64,000 nucleotides of DNA from Opitutia bacterium (GTDB taxonomy: Bacteria > Verrucomicrobiota > Verrucomicrobiia > Opitutales > UBA953): NCBI GenBank assembly GCA_947453335.1, contig CANGFP010000001.1, forward strand, positions 186,001 through 250,000, in the 5' to 3' direction. Shown here piece after piece: positions 47,855 to 55,503 of this stretch. The notes under the pieces were generated by a model that worked only from the letters and a program-made list of their open reading frames with translations, was not told the origin of the DNA and made no database searches. The position numbers were made by a program, and so were the translations under genes. Position 1 is the first letter of the stretch. Every line of letters begins with the position of its first letter.

Positions 47855-47883
47855 AAAAGGGACGTCCGTCGGACGTCCCTTTT
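47855..47883. terminator. Strong bidirectional Rho-independent terminator
   Basis: A perfect 13-bp stem (47855-47867 with 47871-47883) with a 3-nt loop and T-rich ends on both strands. It ends sdhCAB on the plus strand and the CotH/VTC/DUF4956 cluster on the minus strand. Confidence 0.95.
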
Positions 47884-47907: not shown

Positions 47908-48657
47908 TCAGTCGCTGTCCTGCGCGACCAGGTCGTTGGCCTTGGTGATGAGCACGCGGTTGTTGCCGTTGGCCATCTGCAGGGCGTTCGTGAAGGTGTT
48001 CAGCTCGGCGAGGTCGTTGAGCGTGATGTCGTAGACGAGCTCGGTCATCATGCCGGCCTGGATGGTCTCCGCGGAGACGAGCTCATGGCTGACGAGGTAT
48101 TGCTTGAAGGGCGCGGCGAAGGCCTGGTCGTAGTTGAGGTCGTTGCCGACGCGGATGCGCAGGACGTGCGAGCCGCGCTTGGTGCCGAAGAGGGTGATGG
48201 TCCCGAGCACGTAGATGACGGCGCAGACGAGCGGGACGGTGATCAGGGCCAGTTCGTACTGGCGGGCGCCGACGGCCAGGCCGGTGGCCATCGCCAGGAA
48301 GATGAAGCCGATGTCCCTCGCCTGCGAGACGCTGCGGCGGAAGCGGATGATGGAGAACGCGGCGAACATGCCGAAGGCGGTCTCCTTGTTGCCGTGCACG
48401 ACCATGATCACCATGGTGACGACGGTGCCGAGGATGATCAGCGTGTTGACGTAGTCCTGGGAGTACTTCGTGCCGCGGTAGGTGACCTTGTAGAGGAGCG
48501 CGATGAGGCTGTTGAGGACGAAGCTGAAGAGGATGGCGAAGATGATCTCCTTCACGCCGGGGTGCTGCAGCTGCGCACCGGGGGCGAAGAGGGCGTCGAG
48601 GATGCCGTCGCTGTCGGCGACGGATTGGGCCTGGGCGGCGAGGAGGGGGAGGAACAT
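47908..48657 (-). CDS. DUF4956 integral membrane protein
   Basis: A 249-residue protein with about four transmembrane helices (about 40-60, 75-95, 115-130 and 138-160) and a soluble C-terminal domain (about 165-249). GMFAAFSIIRFRRSVSQARDIGFIFLAMATGL near 98-128 is the conserved DUF4956 core, where a basic FRRSVSQARD segment between helices resembles the MgtC/SapB-like layout. To my knowledge DUF4956 genes often neighbour VTC-domain genes, as here, though no function is known. It is last in the minus-strand cluster CotH-CotH-VTC-DUF4956 and ends at the 47855 terminator. Confidence 0.8.
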   Translation of the reverse strand: MFLPLLAAQAQSVADSDGILDALFAPGAQLQHPGVKEIIFAILFSFVLNSLIALLYKVTYRGTKYSQDYVNTLIILGTVVTMVIMVVHGNKETAFGMFAAFSIIRFRRSVSQARDIGFIFLAMATGLAVGARQYELALITVPLVCAVIYVLGTITLFGTKRGSHVLRIRVGNDLNYDQAFAAPFKQYLVSHELVSAETIQAGMMTELVYDITLNDLAELNTFTNALQMANGNNRVLITKANDLVAQDSD

Positions 48658-48677
48658 AAGCGGAGAGAAAAAGGGGG

Positions 48678-49430
48678 TTAGGCGGCGATGGAGAGATGGC
48701 GGCCGGAGATGCGCAAGCCTTCGCCGTACTTGCTGAACTGACGAGGGTACAGGCGCAGGTGGCTGAGGTGGGCGGCGAAGGCGTACGGCACGGAGCCGGC
48801 GCCCTTGACCTCCATGATGCAATGGTCGGCGGGCAGGACGTATTGGTTGAACCGGCGGTCGTCCACGGTCGGCGTCAGCTCGTCGAAGCGCACGGCGATG
48901 TCGTGGTCGAAGGTCACGCGCAGCGGCTCGCGGCCGAGCTCGGCCTCCTCCGGCAGGTGCAGGAAGTAGGCGTGGCGGTCGTAGCGCATGACGCAGGTCG
49001 GCCGGAAGCCTTCCTGGGCGACGAGGCGATGGACCTCCTCGGCGATCCGGAGGTCGTGCGCGGAGAACGAGGCGTCGGGCCGGGCGCCCTGGGAGACGGC
49101 CAGGGCCTGGGCCAGCGTGGTCTGGATCCGGCGCTTCACGCCGCGGCCGTCGGCCTTGTGCTTCACCTCGATGAAGCTCGTGGGCGCGATGGCTCCGTCC
49201 AGCGAACCGTAGACGCGCACGCGCAGCTTGCGGCGGGAGGGGATGCCGCGCCACGCGTCCCAGTAGCAGCGCAGGTCGGGCGAATCGTAGTAGAGGCTGA
49301 CGATCGGGTAGTGGCCGTCCGAGCCGCCATGGGTATCGGGCAACAGCTGGCCGGCGAGGCGCCCGAGCAGCTCGTCGCGCCGTTCGCGGCGGATGAGGAA
49401 CTTGTACTCGAAGCGGTCGGCGGTGTCCAT
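48678..49430 (-). CDS. VTC-domain protein (polyphosphate polymerase-like)
   Basis: A 250-residue soluble protein of the VTC/CYTH-like tunnel fold. Basic and acidic residues expected inside the tunnel are visible: FEYKFLI at 7-13, SLYYDSPD near 45, RRKLRVRVYG near 66, FIEVKHK near 85, MRYDRHAYF near 148, and NQYVLPADHCIMEVKG near 195-211. Yeast Vtc4, the founding enzyme, makes polyphosphate from ATP; bacterial homologues lack the SPX regulatory domain, as here. Product identity is not proven by sequence. It is 4 bp after the first CotH-like gene and 20 bp before the DUF4956 gene. Confidence 0.85.
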   Translation of the reverse strand: MDTADRFEYKFLIRRERRDELLGRLAGQLLPDTHGGSDGHYPIVSLYYDSPDLRCYWDAWRGIPSRRKLRVRVYGSLDGAIAPTSFIEVKHKADGRGVKRRIQTTLAQALAVSQGARPDASFSAHDLRIAEEVHRLVAQEGFRPTCVMRYDRHAYFLHLPEEAELGREPLRVTFDHDIAVRFDELTPTVDDRRFNQYVLPADHCIMEVKGAGSVPYAFAAHLSHLRLYPRQFSKYGEGLRISGRHLSIAA

Positions 49431-49434
49431 CGGC

Positions 49435-51159
49435 TCAGGGGAGGCGCGTCACGGTGACGCTGCCGCGGTCGAGCCAGAGCTCGCCGGCTTCGGCGCGGAG
49501 CTCGACGGCGAGCGTCGGGTCGTTGTCGCCGACGGTGAAGTCGACGGAGATGGGCTTCCAGGGGCTGTCGCCGACCAGCGGCGTGGACTTGGCGTCGGTG
49601 CTGCTGCCGTGCACGCGGAGGCGTCCGCCCTTGGCGGCGTCGCCGGCGGGCTTGATGCCTTTCCACTGCAGTTTGCCTTCGAGGCGGTAGCGGCCGGGCG
49701 AGAGCGAGAGCGGCAGGCGCCAGTCGGAGCCCTTCTCCGCGCCGATCTTGAGGTAGAGGCAATCCTTGCCGGCGTAGGCGGTCTCCTTGGCGTCGCCTTT
49801 GTCCGTCGACCAGACCCAGCCGTAGTTGGCCATGCCGAGCACGGCCTTCCCGCCCGGGGCGCGCAGGCGGTAGGCGTCCTCGACCTGCGCCTTCACGTTG
49901 TCGAGGCGCGCCTTGATCTCGCGCGCGGCGTCCTTGCCGCGCTGGTCGAAGCGCTTGGCCTCCTCTGGGTCGATGGGCTTGAGCTTCACCTTGAGTTCCG
50001 CGGCGACCTCGAGGGCGCGGCGCGGCCAGTCGATGGGCCGCAGGACCTTCTCGTAGACGCCGAAGAACTGCGTCCGGGCGCGCTCACGCATCGTCTTGTC
50101 GAAGAGCAGGGCGTTGGGCACGGCCTTGCCGGGCGGCTTGAAGATGTACCAGCGGGGGTCGCCGAACATCTGGTCCATCCCGTGGAGGATGAAGTAGAAG
50201 CGGCCGCTGCCGGGGTCCTCGTAGATGCGGTAGTTGTTCTGGTTGAACGAATACCCGTCCCAGTGGCAGAGCACCTGCTCCATCGCGAGGTGGCGGAAGT
50301 AGGCGTCGACATCCAGGATCTTCTCCATGCGCTCGAGCCGCTTCGCCGGGTTCGGTTCGGCGACCGCGCCGCAGAGCTCCAGCAGGCGCGACTTCTCGGC
50401 GGGGTCGCCCTTGTCGCACTCGAGGTTGGGGTTGATCTCGTTGACGAAGCCGCCGTCGTAGAGGTGGCCGCTGGTGTTCCTGAAGAAGTAGTGCAGGAAC
50501 TCCCCGTTGAAGCCTTCCTTGAGCACGTACGTGCCGAGGACCTTGTTGTTCAAGGTGACGTAGGCGTGCGTGCAGCGGGAGGCGGGGATGCCGGCGCGGC
50601 GGGCCATCTCGCCCGCGAGCTGCTCGTGCAGCATCGTGCCGTCCTGCGCGCAGTTGTTCAGCTGGAACTTCGTGCAGCCGCGGAACTCCTGGGACTTGTG
50701 GACCTTGTCGGTGCGGATCGAAAAGCCCGGGCGGTCGTCGTTGATCTGGCGGAAGCTGCCGGCGGAGCCTTTCAGCTTGATGAGGCAGTCCGCGAGGGTC
50801 TGTCCGTTGGATTCCTTGAGCGTGAACTTGACGAGGGTGCGCGGGTCCTTGGCCAGCGCCGTCATGCCTTCAGGGGAGATCACCAGGGTGAGCCGCGGGA
50901 CGATCCCGGCGAAGAGCGCGTCATCCGGCAGGTCGGGTGCCTTGGGCAGGACGGGCGCGGCCGGGACGTCGGGCGCGCCTATCACGGGGGTGTCCGGCGT
51001 CGTGGGGGGCGTCTGCGCCGGCAGGGCCGCCGCCAGGCATAAGGCAGCGATCCAAGCGGTGCGGGGGCGACGCGGTTGCTGATGGCTGGAGGGGTGGGCT
51101 TCCAAGCGGGGTGGGGGAGGCGCTAAAATGCCCCTGCGATTTTGGGGAGTCAACCCCAT
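49435..51159 (-). CDS. CotH-family exported protein (kinase-like fold), copy 1
   Basis: A 574-residue protein with a signal-like segment (about 33-49, AWIAALCLAAALPAQ) after a long N-terminal extension. The CotH core begins near 80; KLKGSAGSFRQINDDRPGFSIR is near 130 and NNYRIYEDPGSGRFYFILHGMDQMFG near 320. CotH proteins are protein kinases in Bacillus spore coats. Many CotH proteins have a WD-x-D metal/ATP motif at the second site, but this one reads HGMD, so activity is uncertain. The last 110 residues form a beta domain that could bind carbohydrate. ATG 51159 is the only in-frame ATG near; a TTG at 51105 would give a shorter signal peptide. Confidence 0.8.
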   Translation of the reverse strand: MGLTPQNRRGILAPPPPRLEAHPSSHQQPRRPRTAWIAALCLAAALPAQTPPTTPDTPVIGAPDVPAAPVLPKAPDLPDDALFAGIVPRLTLVISPEGMTALAKDPRTLVKFTLKESNGQTLADCLIKLKGSAGSFRQINDDRPGFSIRTDKVHKSQEFRGCTKFQLNNCAQDGTMLHEQLAGEMARRAGIPASRCTHAYVTLNNKVLGTYVLKEGFNGEFLHYFFRNTSGHLYDGGFVNEINPNLECDKGDPAEKSRLLELCGAVAEPNPAKRLERMEKILDVDAYFRHLAMEQVLCHWDGYSFNQNNYRIYEDPGSGRFYFILHGMDQMFGDPRWYIFKPPGKAVPNALLFDKTMRERARTQFFGVYEKVLRPIDWPRRALEVAAELKVKLKPIDPEEAKRFDQRGKDAAREIKARLDNVKAQVEDAYRLRAPGGKAVLGMANYGWVWSTDKGDAKETAYAGKDCLYLKIGAEKGSDWRLPLSLSPGRYRLEGKLQWKGIKPAGDAAKGGRLRVHGSSTDAKSTPLVGDSPWKPISVDFTVGDNDPTLAVELRAEAGELWLDRGSVTVTRLP

Positions 51160-51223
51160 GGGGCGGTTGGGAATAAGGTTTATTCCTCAAACCGCCGGAA
51201 CTTTTTTCGCGCACGGATTTCCG

Positions 51224-52921
51224 TCAGGGCAACCGCACCAGCTGCACGCTGTTCCGGTCGATCCAAAGTTCGCCGGAGACGCCGGGCGGAAGTTCGGCGA
51301 CGAGCGTCGGGTCGTTGTCCGTGACGGTGAAATCCAAGGCGACGGCTTTCCACGGCGAGTCCCCGACGAAGGTCGTGGCGGCCGGGCCGACGGCGTCGCC
51401 CGAGAGGCGGAGCCGCGCGCCCTTGGCGCCGTTGGCGCCGGGCTTGACGCCCTTGTGCTGGACCTTCGCCTCGAGGCGGTAGCGTCCGGGCGCGAGGCAG
51501 AGGGCGAGGCGGAACTCCGCGCGGCCTTCCGGGGTGGCCTGCAGGTAGAAGGTGTCCTTGCCGGCGACGTTCTTCTCCGCGGCCTGGCCTTTGTCCGCCG
51601 ACGGGAACCAGAGGTAGTTGCCGAGCGCGGCCTTGCCGCCGCCGGGCGAGCGCAGGCGGTACGCATCCTCGAACTGCATCTTCACGAAATCCATCCGCGC
51701 GCGGACCTGTTTCGCCCCGTCCTTGCCGCGTTGTTCGAAGCGCTTGGCTTCCGCGGGGTCGATGGCCTGCAGCTTGGCCTTGAGCTCGGCGGCGACCTGT
51801 TCGGTCCGGCGGCCCCAGTCGTAGGCGCGCACGACCTTCTCGTAGACCAGGAGGCTCTGCTGGCGGAAGCGTTCGCGGATCGCCGGGGCGTCCTTCGAGG
51901 TCCAAAGGGCCTGCGCGACGGCGGTGACGCTCGCGCCGGGGTAGAGCGGGGCGGTGACCGGCGAGGAAAGCACGTAGGCGCGGGGGTTGCTCTGGCCCCA
52001 CGAGTCGACGCCGAACATGTTGTCCATGCCGTGCATGATGAACACGAACCTGCCGGCGTCGGGGTCCTCGTAGACGCGGTAGTTGTTCGCGCGGTACGAG
52101 TAGCCGTCCCCGTGCACCATGATGTTCTCCATGGCCAGGTGGCGCAGGTAGAGGTCGATGTCCAGGCTCCTGGCGACGCGGCCGGCGCGCTTGGCGGCGT
52201 CGGGTTCGGCGAGGGCCGCGGCGAACTCCGTGATGCGCGACTTCTCCGCGGGGTCGCCGTGGTCGCATTCCAGTCCGGGGCTGATGTCGTTGTGCAGGCC
52301 GCCGTCGTAGAGGTGGCCGCTGGTGTTGCGGAAGAAGTACCGCAGGAACTCGGCGTTGAAGCCTTCCTTGAGGACGTACGTGCCTTGGACCTTGCCGTTG
52401 AGGGTGACGAACGCGTGCGTGCAACGGGAGGCGGGGATGCCGGCCTTGCGCGCCATCTCGCCGGCGATCTGCTCGTGGAGGTAGGTGCCGTCCTGGGCGC
52501 AGTTGTTGAGCTGGAACTTCGCGCACCCGCGGTACTCCTGGCGTTTGCGCACCTTGTCGGTGCGGATCGAGAGACCCGGGCGGTCCTCGTTGATCTGGCG
52601 GAGGCTGCCGGCGGAGCCCTTGATCTTGACCAGGCAATCCTCGTACGTCGCGCCGCCGACCTCCCTCATCGTCATCGGCACCAGCGTGCGCGGCTCCTTC
52701 ATGAGGCGCTGGATGTTCTCCGGCGCGATCGTCAGCTGGAGGTGCGGCACGAAGCCGGCGAAGAGGGCGTCGTCGTTCTGGTCCGCGGGCCTGGGCGCGA
52801 CCGGCGCGGCCGGGACGTCGGGCGCGCCGATCGCCGGCGTGTCGGCCGCCGCCAGCGGGAGGCAGCCGCAGGCCAGGGCGAAGCCGAGCGTCGCGAGGTG
52901 GGTGGAGGACGGGGCGGACAC
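51224..52921 (-). CDS. CotH-family exported protein (kinase-like fold), copy 2
   Basis: A 565-residue paralogue of the next gene downstream: both share DxPAIGAPDVPAAPV, KIKGSAGSLRQINEDRPG, KFQLNNCAQDGT, VLKEGFN, NTSGHLYDGG and the C-terminal beta domain with FVGDSPWK and DNDPTL. It also has HGMDNMFG in place of the common WD-x-D. No ATG is in frame near the N-terminus; GTG at 52921 gives a good signal peptide (STHLATLGFALACGCLPLAAA) and is chosen over TTG 52966. A 64-bp gap separates it from copy 1. It is divergent from the FecR-like gene, sharing about 110 bp of upstream DNA. Confidence 0.8.
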   Translation of the reverse strand: MSAPSSTHLATLGFALACGCLPLAAADTPAIGAPDVPAAPVAPRPADQNDDALFAGFVPHLQLTIAPENIQRLMKEPRTLVPMTMREVGGATYEDCLVKIKGSAGSLRQINEDRPGLSIRTDKVRKRQEYRGCAKFQLNNCAQDGTYLHEQIAGEMARKAGIPASRCTHAFVTLNGKVQGTYVLKEGFNAEFLRYFFRNTSGHLYDGGLHNDISPGLECDHGDPAEKSRITEFAAALAEPDAAKRAGRVARSLDIDLYLRHLAMENIMVHGDGYSYRANNYRVYEDPDAGRFVFIMHGMDNMFGVDSWGQSNPRAYVLSSPVTAPLYPGASVTAVAQALWTSKDAPAIRERFRQQSLLVYEKVVRAYDWGRRTEQVAAELKAKLQAIDPAEAKRFEQRGKDGAKQVRARMDFVKMQFEDAYRLRSPGGGKAALGNYLWFPSADKGQAAEKNVAGKDTFYLQATPEGRAEFRLALCLAPGRYRLEAKVQHKGVKPGANGAKGARLRLSGDAVGPAATTFVGDSPWKAVALDFTVTDNDPTLVAELPPGVSGELWIDRNSVQLVRLP

Positions 52922-53034
52922 GCGCGTGGGGTCCGTCCATCTCAGGCCGCCGCCCGCGGGAGTCAACCGCCGCTCCGCCGGCTTTCCCGCAGTGGCGTGT
53001 TGCTTCCGGGCGGGTGGCCCATCAATAAAAGGCC

Positions 53035-53754
53035 ATGCGCCCGCTTCTCGCCGCTTCCGCCATGGTTTCGCTCAGCCTGCTCTCCGGTTGCGCGGGTTCC
53101 CCGTACGAACCGGCGGAGAAGGCCTCCGGTCTCCATGACGGGCTGGCGTTGGTCGCCCCGGCCAAGGGCACGGTGATCATGCGCAGCCCGGCCAACAAGG
53201 TCGCCCTCCTGAAGGCCGCCTCCTACACGGAGCGCGGCACGACGCTCGAGACGCCCGCCGCCGCCAACGCTTCGTTCAGCCTCTTCAACGGCGTCTCCGG
53301 CACGGTGCAGGAGAACTCCGGGTTCCGCTTCCTGACCTTGCTCGGCGAGCCGGAAGGCTACAGCAATCCTTTCCGCGTCGAGACCGGCGACGGCAACTAC
53401 GAGCGCGGCTACTCGATCGTCGAGCTGGAGCTCCAGCGCGGCGGCGTCGACCTCGAGACCGGCTGGCTGAGCGCGCGCAGCGTCTGCGTCGTCCGCACCG
53501 AGGTCGGCCTGGTCAGGTACGTCGCCGGGACGGTCGCGATCCGCCTGACGCGCAACGACGCGGGCGAGCCGGTGCTGACGGTGACCTGTCCGCGCGGTTC
53601 GGCCGAGGTGTCCTACGTCAACTACACCAAGGACGCGGCGTACGCGAAGGCCGTCGTCCGCGGCGGCTACGTTCAGATCGCGCAGAATCCGACGTCCGGC
53701 CGCACGGTCGTCGTCGCGGGCGACGTCGTCCCGGCCAAGCCGGCCTCCAAGTAA
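53035..53754 (+). CDS. Small lipoprotein with a FecR-like beta domain
   Basis: A 239-residue lipoprotein (SLSLLSGC, lipid Cys at 19). The body is beta-rich; ETPAAANASFSLFNGVSGTVQENSGFRF near 85-112 resembles the FecR domain, a sandwich found in sensors and in surface proteins. No transmembrane helix or sigma-factor gene is nearby, so a classic FecR signalling role is unlikely. ATG 53035 starts the lipoprotein signal. It converges on the GH20 gene with 3 bp between stops. Function unknown. Confidence 0.6.
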   Translation: MRPLLAASAMVSLSLLSGCAGSPYEPAEKASGLHDGLALVAPAKGTVIMRSPANKVALLKAASYTERGTTLETPAAANASFSLFNGVSGTVQENSGFRFLTLLGEPEGYSNPFRVETGDGNYERGYSIVELELQRGGVDLETGWLSARSVCVVRTEVGLVRYVAGTVAIRLTRNDAGEPVLTVTCPRGSAEVSYVNYTKDAAYAKAVVRGGYVQIAQNPTSGRTVVVAGDVVPAKPASK

Positions 53755-53757
53755 GGG

Positions 53758-55503
53758 TCAGCCTAGGCGCAGCCCGGCCGCGCTTTCGGCGAGTCCGCCG
53801 CGGCGGGCGCGCTTCAGCCAGGCTTGTTCGTAGCGGGAACGGAGCTCGGCGGCCGCCGTCGGGGCGAGCGGGCGACCGGTCGCCCGGCCGAGGCCGGCGC
53901 GCGCGAGTTCGAGCCCGACGGCGAGCTCCTCCCTGACGCGGTCGTCCTTGATCGCCGCGACGAGCCGGGCGCTTTCTTCGAGGTAGGCCAGCGAGGCGGC
54001 GAGCTCCTTGGCGTCGACGCCGGCGACGAAGCCGGCGAGAGCCTCGGGCGCCGCGGTCAGGAAATCCCAGGTGAGGCTCTTGTTGCGGTTGGCCTTGGCG
54101 ATCTGGCCGTCGAGCCGCCCGAGGTGCGCGAGGGCCGCGGCGACGGCGCCGCCATCCTTTGCGTCCAGTCCGCCGAGGATCCCGCAGGCGGCCGCGTCGT
54201 CGGTCTGCTGGTTCGCCGCGCCGCACCAGGCTTGCGCGAGGCCCGCGGCCATCGGCAACCATGCGGTCGGCCAGGGCTGGTGCGAGCCGTTGTCTCCCCA
54301 AGTGGTGACGAGGACACCCTGGGCGCGGTGGCGCGCGGCGGCGGCGACGGCTTCGCGTTGGTTGGCCAGCGCGTTGTCCAGCCGGCCGGTGAAGCTCTGC
54401 CAGGCGCTGGTGCCGGGCGCGACGAGGTAGGCCCGGCCGAGCTCCTGCAGCCGACCGCATTGCGCCGCGAACGGATGGCCGGCGTCGTAACCCCAGACGA
54501 CGGGGGTGGCGTCGACCGGTGCGTCCTGCGCGAGCGCGAGGTCCTCGAGGAGGATGTCGCCCCAGAACTGCGGGGTGCGGCCGCGGCCGGAGGCGAGCGC
54601 GCAGATGCGGCGCAGGTGGTCGAGGTAGACGCGGTGCTTGCCGCGCGCGGCGACGGCGGCCTTGCTGTGGCCTTGGCCGAGTTCCCATGGTTCGTCGCCC
54701 CCGAGGTTCACCTGTCGGCTGCGGAAGCAGGGCAGGTAGGCGTCGAGGAGCTCCGCGACGAAGGCGAGCGAGGCGTCGTCGGGCTTGAGCGTGCCGGGGA
54801 ACTCCTTGAACTGTCCGGTGAGCGGATGGATCCAGCCTTCGGGGCATTCGGCGAGCGCGCGGTAGCGCGGGTGGCGCAGCCACCGCTCCATGTGGCCGAA
54901 GGTGTTCAGGTTCGGGACGAGTTCGATGCCGACCGCGGCGCAGGCGTCGTCGAGCGCGCGGACCTCCGCTGGCGTCAGCGGCGAGGCGTCGGCCCAGGCG
55001 TCTGCGTGGCCCGGGAACGCGAAGGTGTGTTCGACGTACAGCTGGAGCTGGTTGACGCGGAGCTGCGCGAGCGCGCGCACGAGGTCGAGGAGTTCCGCCT
55101 GCGTCGGCACCTTGCAGCGCGAGATGTCCAACATGAACCCGCGGACGGGGAGGTCGGGCGCGTCGGAGACCAGGAGGCAGGGCAGGGCGTCGGGGTGCTG
55201 GGCGTGGATCTGGCGGAGCGTCTGCGCGCCATAGAGGAGGCCCGCCGCGTCGCGCGCCTGCAGGCGGAGGCCTTCGGTGGAGATCTCCAGACGGTAGCCT
55301 TCGGGCTCGAGGCCTGCCGCCTGCTCGATGCGGCAAGCCCCTTCGGCGGGCGCGGCCAGCGCGGCTTGCGCGGCGACGATGGTCGCAGGGAGGCCGGCCA
55401 GGAAACGGCCCGTCGGGTGGGGCGCCGCCGGAGCCGCCAGGGAGCCCGTGCGCAGGCTCAATTCCCTTGGACGGGGGAAGAGACGCGGCGGTTGGGCGGG
55501 CAT
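53758..55503 (-). CDS. GH20-family beta-N-acetylhexosaminidase, cytoplasmic
   Basis: A 581-residue TIM-barrel glycosidase that removes terminal GlcNAc or GalNAc residues. An N-terminal GH20b-like domain (about 1-110) precedes PVRGFMLDISRCKVPTQAELLDLV at about 118-142, FGHMERWLRHP near 200 and the catalytic pair in NLGGDEPWELG near 265 (Asp-Glu). WGDILLEDL near 310 and VVWGYDAGHP near 335 follow the family pattern. There is no signal peptide (start MPAQPPRLFPRP), so it acts inside the cell on imported oligosaccharides or recycled wall fragments. It is divergent from the large cytochrome gene. Confidence 0.85.
   Translation of the reverse strand: MPAQPPRLFPRPRELSLRTGSLAAPAAPHPTGRFLAGLPATIVAAQAALAAPAEGACRIEQAAGLEPEGYRLEISTEGLRLQARDAAGLLYGAQTLRQIHAQHPDALPCLLVSDAPDLPVRGFMLDISRCKVPTQAELLDLVRALAQLRVNQLQLYVEHTFAFPGHADAWADASPLTPAEVRALDDACAAVGIELVPNLNTFGHMERWLRHPRYRALAECPEGWIHPLTGQFKEFPGTLKPDDASLAFVAELLDAYLPCFRSRQVNLGGDEPWELGQGHSKAAVAARGKHRVYLDHLRRICALASGRGRTPQFWGDILLEDLALAQDAPVDATPVVWGYDAGHPFAAQCGRLQELGRAYLVAPGTSAWQSFTGRLDNALANQREAVAAAARHRAQGVLVTTWGDNGSHQPWPTAWLPMAAGLAQAWCGAANQQTDDAAACGILGGLDAKDGGAVAAALAHLGRLDGQIAKANRNKSLTWDFLTAAPEALAGFVAGVDAKELAASLAYLEESARLVAAIKDDRVREELAVGLELARAGLGRATGRPLAPTAAAELRSRYEQAWLKRARRGGLAESAAGLRLG

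Follow-up and report, generated by a model that had tools for sequence, protein, structure and literature searches.

A CotH–VTC–DUF4956 gene module free of Pel in Verrucomicrobiota and its possible role in membrane-coupled polyphosphate synthesis

To our knowledge it has not been established by what route bacteria produce and export polyphosphate using enzymes of the VTC type, or whether they do so at all. The question is raised by a run of four genes in an Opitutia bacterium (assembly GCA_947453335.1, contig CANGFP010000001.1), located in a window of 64,000 nt (forward-strand positions 186,001-250,000), which is the whole stretch of DNA analysed here and to which the coordinates below refer. 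All four lie on the minus strand in the order CotH–CotH–VTC–DUF4956, with spacers of 64, 4 and 20 bp. A sequence-only reading had described this arrangement and its gaps, and both the coordinates and the four Pfam families were borne out, every gene scoring well above the cut-off of its family (CotH 23.8, VTC 23, DUF4956 30.6 bits). The features are the following.

51224..52921, minus strand: CotH1, first of the tandem pair; putatively exported, kinase-fold protein with a C-terminal jelly-roll domain (Pfam CotH, 89.2 bits)
49435..51159, minus strand: CotH2; putatively exported, kinase fold at residues about 50-430 and a CBM16-like C-terminal domain (Pfam CotH, 85.5 bits)
48678..49430, minus strand: VTC protein; predicted cytosolic polyphosphate polymerase with the triphosphate tunnel fold (Pfam VTC, 110.5 bits)
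47908..48657, minus strand: DUF4956 protein; five predicted TM helices (MgtC-like) and a predicted cytosolic ACT/ferredoxin-like domain (Pfam DUF4956, 64.9 bits)
47855..47883, no strand: hairpin, bidirectional and terminator-like, between the DUF4956 gene and convergent sdhB

The CotH1 frame extends to 52966 (TTG), the GTG at 52921 being the likelier start. Both CotH proteins begin with signal-peptide-like segments, in agreement with the export that had been proposed for them. The shared terminator expected at the end of the cluster corresponds to a strong hairpin, common to the DUF4956 gene and sdhB (13-bp perfect stem, A/T tails, -21 kcal/mol, z -4.43), which was overlooked by the consensus terminator scan because its T-run has four T and the scan requires five; the consensus promoter scan found no match at the locus. 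Among named relatives, the closest are metagenome-assembled Opitutae genomes from freshwater (VTC identity 84–88%). The host assembly (1.13 Mb) was judged 63% complete, so that absences in its own genome carry little weight.

The linkage of CotH, VTC and DUF4956 is real, conserved and far beyond chance. Across a survey of 241 Verrucomicrobiota genomes, VTC and DUF4956 were each present in 48 and occurred together in 47 (Fisher p 8e-48, a value that overstates the case since kin genomes are counted as independent, yet the pairing spans many families). For 53 of the 57 VTC genes in these genomes a DUF4956 gene lies on the same strand at a distance of at most 650 bp, in 50 cases downstream, and two of the remaining four VTC genes (G004 and G226) sit at contig ends. 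The two families were also found in exactly the same three of 14 named control genomes, and DUF4956 adjoins VTC in 59 of 61 named loci, a set gathered with a narrow VTC alignment and biased toward Verrucomicrobiota. No convincing VTC-DUF4956 fusion was seen among the loci inspected; long DUF4956 ORFs in some of them, considered as fusions, were read instead as open-frame overextensions. At 18 named loci from Opitutae and Chthoniobacter the order is CotH–VTC–DUF4956, with CotH directly upstream of VTC; CPR loci likewise have CotH directly upstream of VTC, and the full tandem recurs in six further Opitutae loci (L039, L041–L045) and in one CPR genome (Peribacteria contig L094). Related arrangements were found in loci of Deltaproteobacteria, Pseudonocardia, Planctomycetota and Bacteroidota. 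The conserved neighbourhood that the sequence-only reading had proposed to look for therefore exists, across genomes and across phyla. Within the host genus, VTC is present in 17 of 25 genomes (the host's own counted); the two genomes sampled from the sister genus have none of VTC, CotH and DUF4956.

As a set, the three families are not new, having already been published as accessory genes of Pel operons (PMC7112168, PMC12345266); these operons serve a biofilm sugar, and the trio had been known only next to them, in Gram-positive bacteria. The order cotH–PPP(VTC)–DUF4956–DUF4832 neighbours pel in streptococci and clostridia, and bifidobacteria have a variant of it (PMC7112168); a 2025 paper places the trio of S. 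intermedius within SIR_1594-1591 and reports no instance of the arrangement away from Pel loci (PMC12345266). In C. perfringens, too, one locus combines VTC genes with membrane genes and CotH, close to a glycosyltransferase (PMC2879425). The window's cluster shares with the Pel accessory cluster a secreted CotH, a polyphosphate-polymerase domain and an MgtC/ACT membrane protein, but differs from it in that no pelDEADAFG genes are adjacent, two CotH genes stand in tandem, the C-terminal domain of CotH is CBM16-like and not FN3, and no DUF4832 glycosidase was found within the cluster. PelG itself was detected in 2-3 of the 241 phylum genomes. It is missing from 47 of the 48 VTC genomes, including the host's own (63% complete) and the same-genus G102, and in the sole VTC genome that carries it PelG is on another contig; the module thus exists without Pel. 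Within the literature searched, what appears to be new is this Pel-free form, in which two tandem CotH carry a CBM-like domain, and the porin gene, described below, that accompanies the module in relatives.

Is the VTC protein a polymerase? It is 250 aa long and consists of the VTC domain only, with no SPX domain by Pfam. A PDB search with the single sequence gave no real match; the profile search succeeded, profile A1 matching yeast Vtc4 (3g3q, E 5.5e-25). All 11 mapped Vtc4 residues are kept in the window's protein (window=yeast: R6=R196, K10=K200, R70=R264, R72=R266, K90=K281, K99=K294, R152=R361, R171=R373, E207=E426, K209=K428, K234=K458), so that the tunnel has every catalytic Lys and Arg on which the earlier reading had hinged. 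Vtc4 R264 and R266 are essential for polyphosphate synthesis (PMC8749416) and K458 has been called catalytic (PMC4641920). What separates polymerases from tripolyphosphatases is a set of four positions, basic in Vtc4 and Glu in the phosphatase (PMC4641920); taking the alignment columns as equivalent, the window's protein seems to have a basic residue at three of them (R6, K99, K209). Counting against a polymerase is the acidic E8, which corresponds to Thr198 in yeast Vtc4 and presumably to Glu in phosphatases. On balance, these residues favour a polymerase over a tripolyphosphatase. A role as replacement for PPK1 was rejected, PPK1 being present in 180 of the 241 genomes, including G102.

In the DUF4956 model (pLDDT 84.5), five long membrane helices precede a C-terminal domain of ferredoxin-like fold. 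The Foldseek hits of this domain include ACT domains and PII proteins among further ferredoxin-like structures, with no hit below E 0.001. PDB searches by single sequence and by profile gave no real match. An hhalign comparison with MgtC reached 82.5% (E 1e-5), against 0.2% for reversed controls and 42% for the best of 40 block shuffles, and the MgtC Pfam model (PF02308) matched DUF4956 genes in five relatives, exceeding its cut-off once (G004). As modelled, the protein is an MgtC-like membrane domain followed by a cytosolic ACT-like domain; the S. intermedius member was independently described as MgtC plus ACT in the 2025 paper (PMC12345266). DUF4956 thus has in common with MgtC/SapB (PF02308) the membrane-spanning core and the ferredoxin/ACT-like domain at the C-terminus, but it is a separate Pfam family that lacks the AGxRT signature of the MgtC alignment, has an invariant RFR motif and pairs with VTC. 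R105 and R107 in this protein are invariant in 50 sequences, and the charge pattern would place them at the cytosolic membrane face.

A further neighbour is seen in relatives. In 13 related loci, mostly of Akkermansiaceae, a Porin_O_P gene directly follows DUF4956 (13/13 match the family), and in G091 and G179 it likewise adjoins DUF4956; VTC-DUF4956-porin is carried by a cultured Luteolibacter (L071, L073). No porin gene occurs in the cluster of the window itself. Porin_O_P is the Pfam family (PF07396) named for the phosphate-selective porins O and P, and OprO prefers polyphosphate. The link to OprO/OprP is this position after DUF4956 in relatives, with the family assigned here from sequence, and its weight is lessened by how common Porin_O_P is, 96 of the 241 phylum genomes having it. 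The order VTC–DUF4956–Porin_O_P suggests a candidate path for a phosphate polymer across both membranes.

We tentatively read the four genes, at a confidence somewhat short of probable, as a membrane-coupled polyphosphate synthase module serving a CotH surface function. What the analysis shows directly is the gene linkage, the catalytic residues of VTC and the domain folds. In the cytosol, the VTC protein would polymerise phosphate from ATP into polyphosphate, working with the DUF4956 protein as its MgtC-like membrane partner, whose ACT-like domain is probably a ligand sensor and whose conserved R105, R107 and R114 are at the predicted cytosolic membrane face. By analogy with the yeast VTC complex, this partner would receive the growing chain and hand it outward. 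Outside, the CotH proteins, held to polysaccharide by their CBM-like domain, would make use of the phosphate polymer, or react to it, in building or modifying the cell-surface matrix. Synthesis by VTC, passage by way of DUF4956, the reaction of CotH and its target at the surface are inferences. A scheme of this kind, with polyphosphate made inside, moved by DUF4956 and used outside with CotH, had been put forward by the sequence-only reading; it fits and gains from the porin of 13 relatives, its transport and use steps keeping their conditional standing. That reading had included neither the earlier publication of the trio in Pel operons, nor the MgtC-like and ACT-like nature of DUF4956, nor the altered WDxD motif of CotH (see below). 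With the eukaryotic VTC complex (Vtc4/Vtc1/Vtc3; 7ytj, 8i6v) the cluster shares a tunnel domain with all catalytic residues and a membrane partner, but it has no SPX domain, its polymerase is separate and soluble, and the partner is MgtC-like and not of Vtc1 type. A regulatory role is what is known for MgtC proteins, not one as polymer channel, and both this and the resemblance of DUF4956 to MgtC, not Vtc1, count against the synthase reading. In its favour, basic residues line the channel along which polyphosphate moves in the yeast complex (PMC9911596), and in S. intermedius loss of the CotH or the MgtC/ACT gene alters the amount of Pel and cuts aggregation in sputum medium by more than half (PMC12345266).

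The main rival, possible though on the unlikely side, is a regulatory one. DUF4956 would be an MgtC-like membrane regulator whose ligand-sensing ACT domain controls the ATP or phosphate state, VTC would make or drain a cytosolic polyphosphate or triphosphate signal, and a surface polymer would be tuned with CotH as effector and no export of polyphosphate. The kinship of DUF4956 with MgtC and its ACT-like domain speak for this, and so do the S. intermedius deletions of the 2025 paper: loss of the MgtC/ACT gene raised Pel, loss of CotH lowered it, and for the VTC gene no aggregation phenotype is reported (PMC12345266). The lack of a reported phenotype for the VTC deletion also counts against a membrane-coupled synthase, as do two exceptions to the pairing, G115 (VTC without DUF4956) and G238, whose CotH-DUF4956 pair without VTC speaks for the regulatory module. 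Two findings speak against regulation: DUF4956 is paired nearly strictly with a VTC in which the catalytic residues of Vtc4 are retained, and a porin gene is linked to the pair in the 13 loci.

The CotH proteins pose the question of what happens outside the cell. CotH1 and CotH2 share 61.5% identity. The CotH profile matches B. cereus CotH (5jd9, E 4e-32), and the AlphaFold2 model of CotH2 (pLDDT 84.6) matches 5jda (TM 0.75 by target); the C-terminal jelly-roll matches CBM16 structures (E 2e-5) and an endoglucanase N-terminal region (8e-8). The catalytic-loop Asp (D228 type) and Asn are kept in the family (DGYS...NNY). The CotH1 motif HGDGYSYRANNY...HGMDNMFG is common to orthologues, and in it HGMD replaces WDxD, the first Asp having become Gly and the second being kept. 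HGMD was found in every VTC-linked Opitutae and Chthoniobacter CotH in which the region could be read, and a Deltaproteobacterium CotH has the form WGxD, which suggests that HGMD marks a subfamily rather than decay. The spacing from the catalytic Asp to the first WDxD Asp is 23 in B. cereus CotH, equal to D228–D251 of B. subtilis; by this spacing, and assuming no indel between the species, the Asp missing in HGMD would be the equivalent of D251. With HGMD, kinase activity cannot be assumed, and these proteins may not be kinases. They resemble the spore-coat kinase (B. subtilis; B. cereus 5jd9/5jda) in the kinase fold and the catalytic-loop DG...N, but differ in being exported, in the added CBM-like domain, in HGMD for WDxD and in a host phylum in which we know of no endospores, for which reason a role in an endospore coat was rejected.

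It is quite unlikely, in our estimate, that CotH1 and CotH2 act outside the cell as kinases of protein or sugar and phosphorylate the matrix, VTC-DUF4956 only supplying polyphosphate as phosphoryl donor where ATP is absent. The kinase fold with its catalytic-loop Asp and Asn and the CBM16-like domain agree with such kinases. We know of no CotH that uses polyphosphate. CotH is a proven kinase in Bacillus, yet D251A inactivates the B. subtilis enzyme (PMC7821199), and it is the D251 equivalent, matched by spacing on the no-indel assumption, that is Gly here.

A bolder form of the synthase reading, which we regard as unlikely, is a polyphosphate secretion machine unrelated to PPK, running from VTC through a translocon of MgtC type, followed in relatives by a porin of OprO/P type, to the surface, where the CotH proteins with altered WDxD would attach or transfer polyphosphate onto the matrix. 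That separate phosphate-related genes merely travel together by history, with no joint function, is very improbable: gene order does vary between loci and many CotH genes of the phylum are unlinked, but co-occurrence and adjacency across several phyla are far above chance, and CotH lies within 6 kb of at least 19 of the 57 VTC genes where a rough estimate expects about one.

In this module a VTC protein with an intact catalytic set is tied, almost without exception, to a single membrane partner, and it is tied to secreted CotH proteins across phyla. The trio is freed from Pel, outside which the 2025 paper did not find it (PMC12345266). The link to MgtC offers a case where a protein of MgtC type is matched with a defined enzyme, and the porin linkage offers a testable route across both membranes.

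Two genes lie upstream of CotH1, the first of the two exported kinase-fold proteins of the module:

53035-53754, small lipoprotein-like gene
53758-55503, GH20-type beta-hexosaminidase gene

Synteny of the GH20 gene extends to several Opitutae loci. While the orthologues of CotH1 start with an ATG (MECTDP...), in the window (52910-52966) this codon is out of frame owing to a 5-base difference; either CotH1 starts here with the GTG at 52921 or the assembly is in error. The hexamer TTGACT is found upstream of CotH1 both in the window (52950-52970) and in the Opitutae loci L039, L041 and L042, and a second copy is located at the start of CotH2 in the window (51130-51160); these are possible conserved promoter elements.

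In G102, a genome of the same genus, a CotH1-type paralogue is located on a separate contig (C5; L101:3731-5359) from VTC-DUF4956, beside which a CotH2-type gene is still found.

At the other end of the module, a pseudopilin-like gene, recognized by its N-terminal methylation motif, directly or closely follows DUF4956 in about ten loci (L054, L057, L060, L063, L064, L083, L085 and L087-L089), mostly from Chthoniobacteraceae and Akkermansiaceae.

In L098 (G115:C139, 28-4636), VTC has no DUF4956 partner; after it come a glycosyltransferase-like gene and further genes that, judged by eye, seem polysaccharide-related. In L097 (G238:C59, 4810-7003), DUF4956 adjoins CotH without an intervening VTC, which was not found in genome G238. 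DUF4956 can be paired with CotH without the VTC polymerase.
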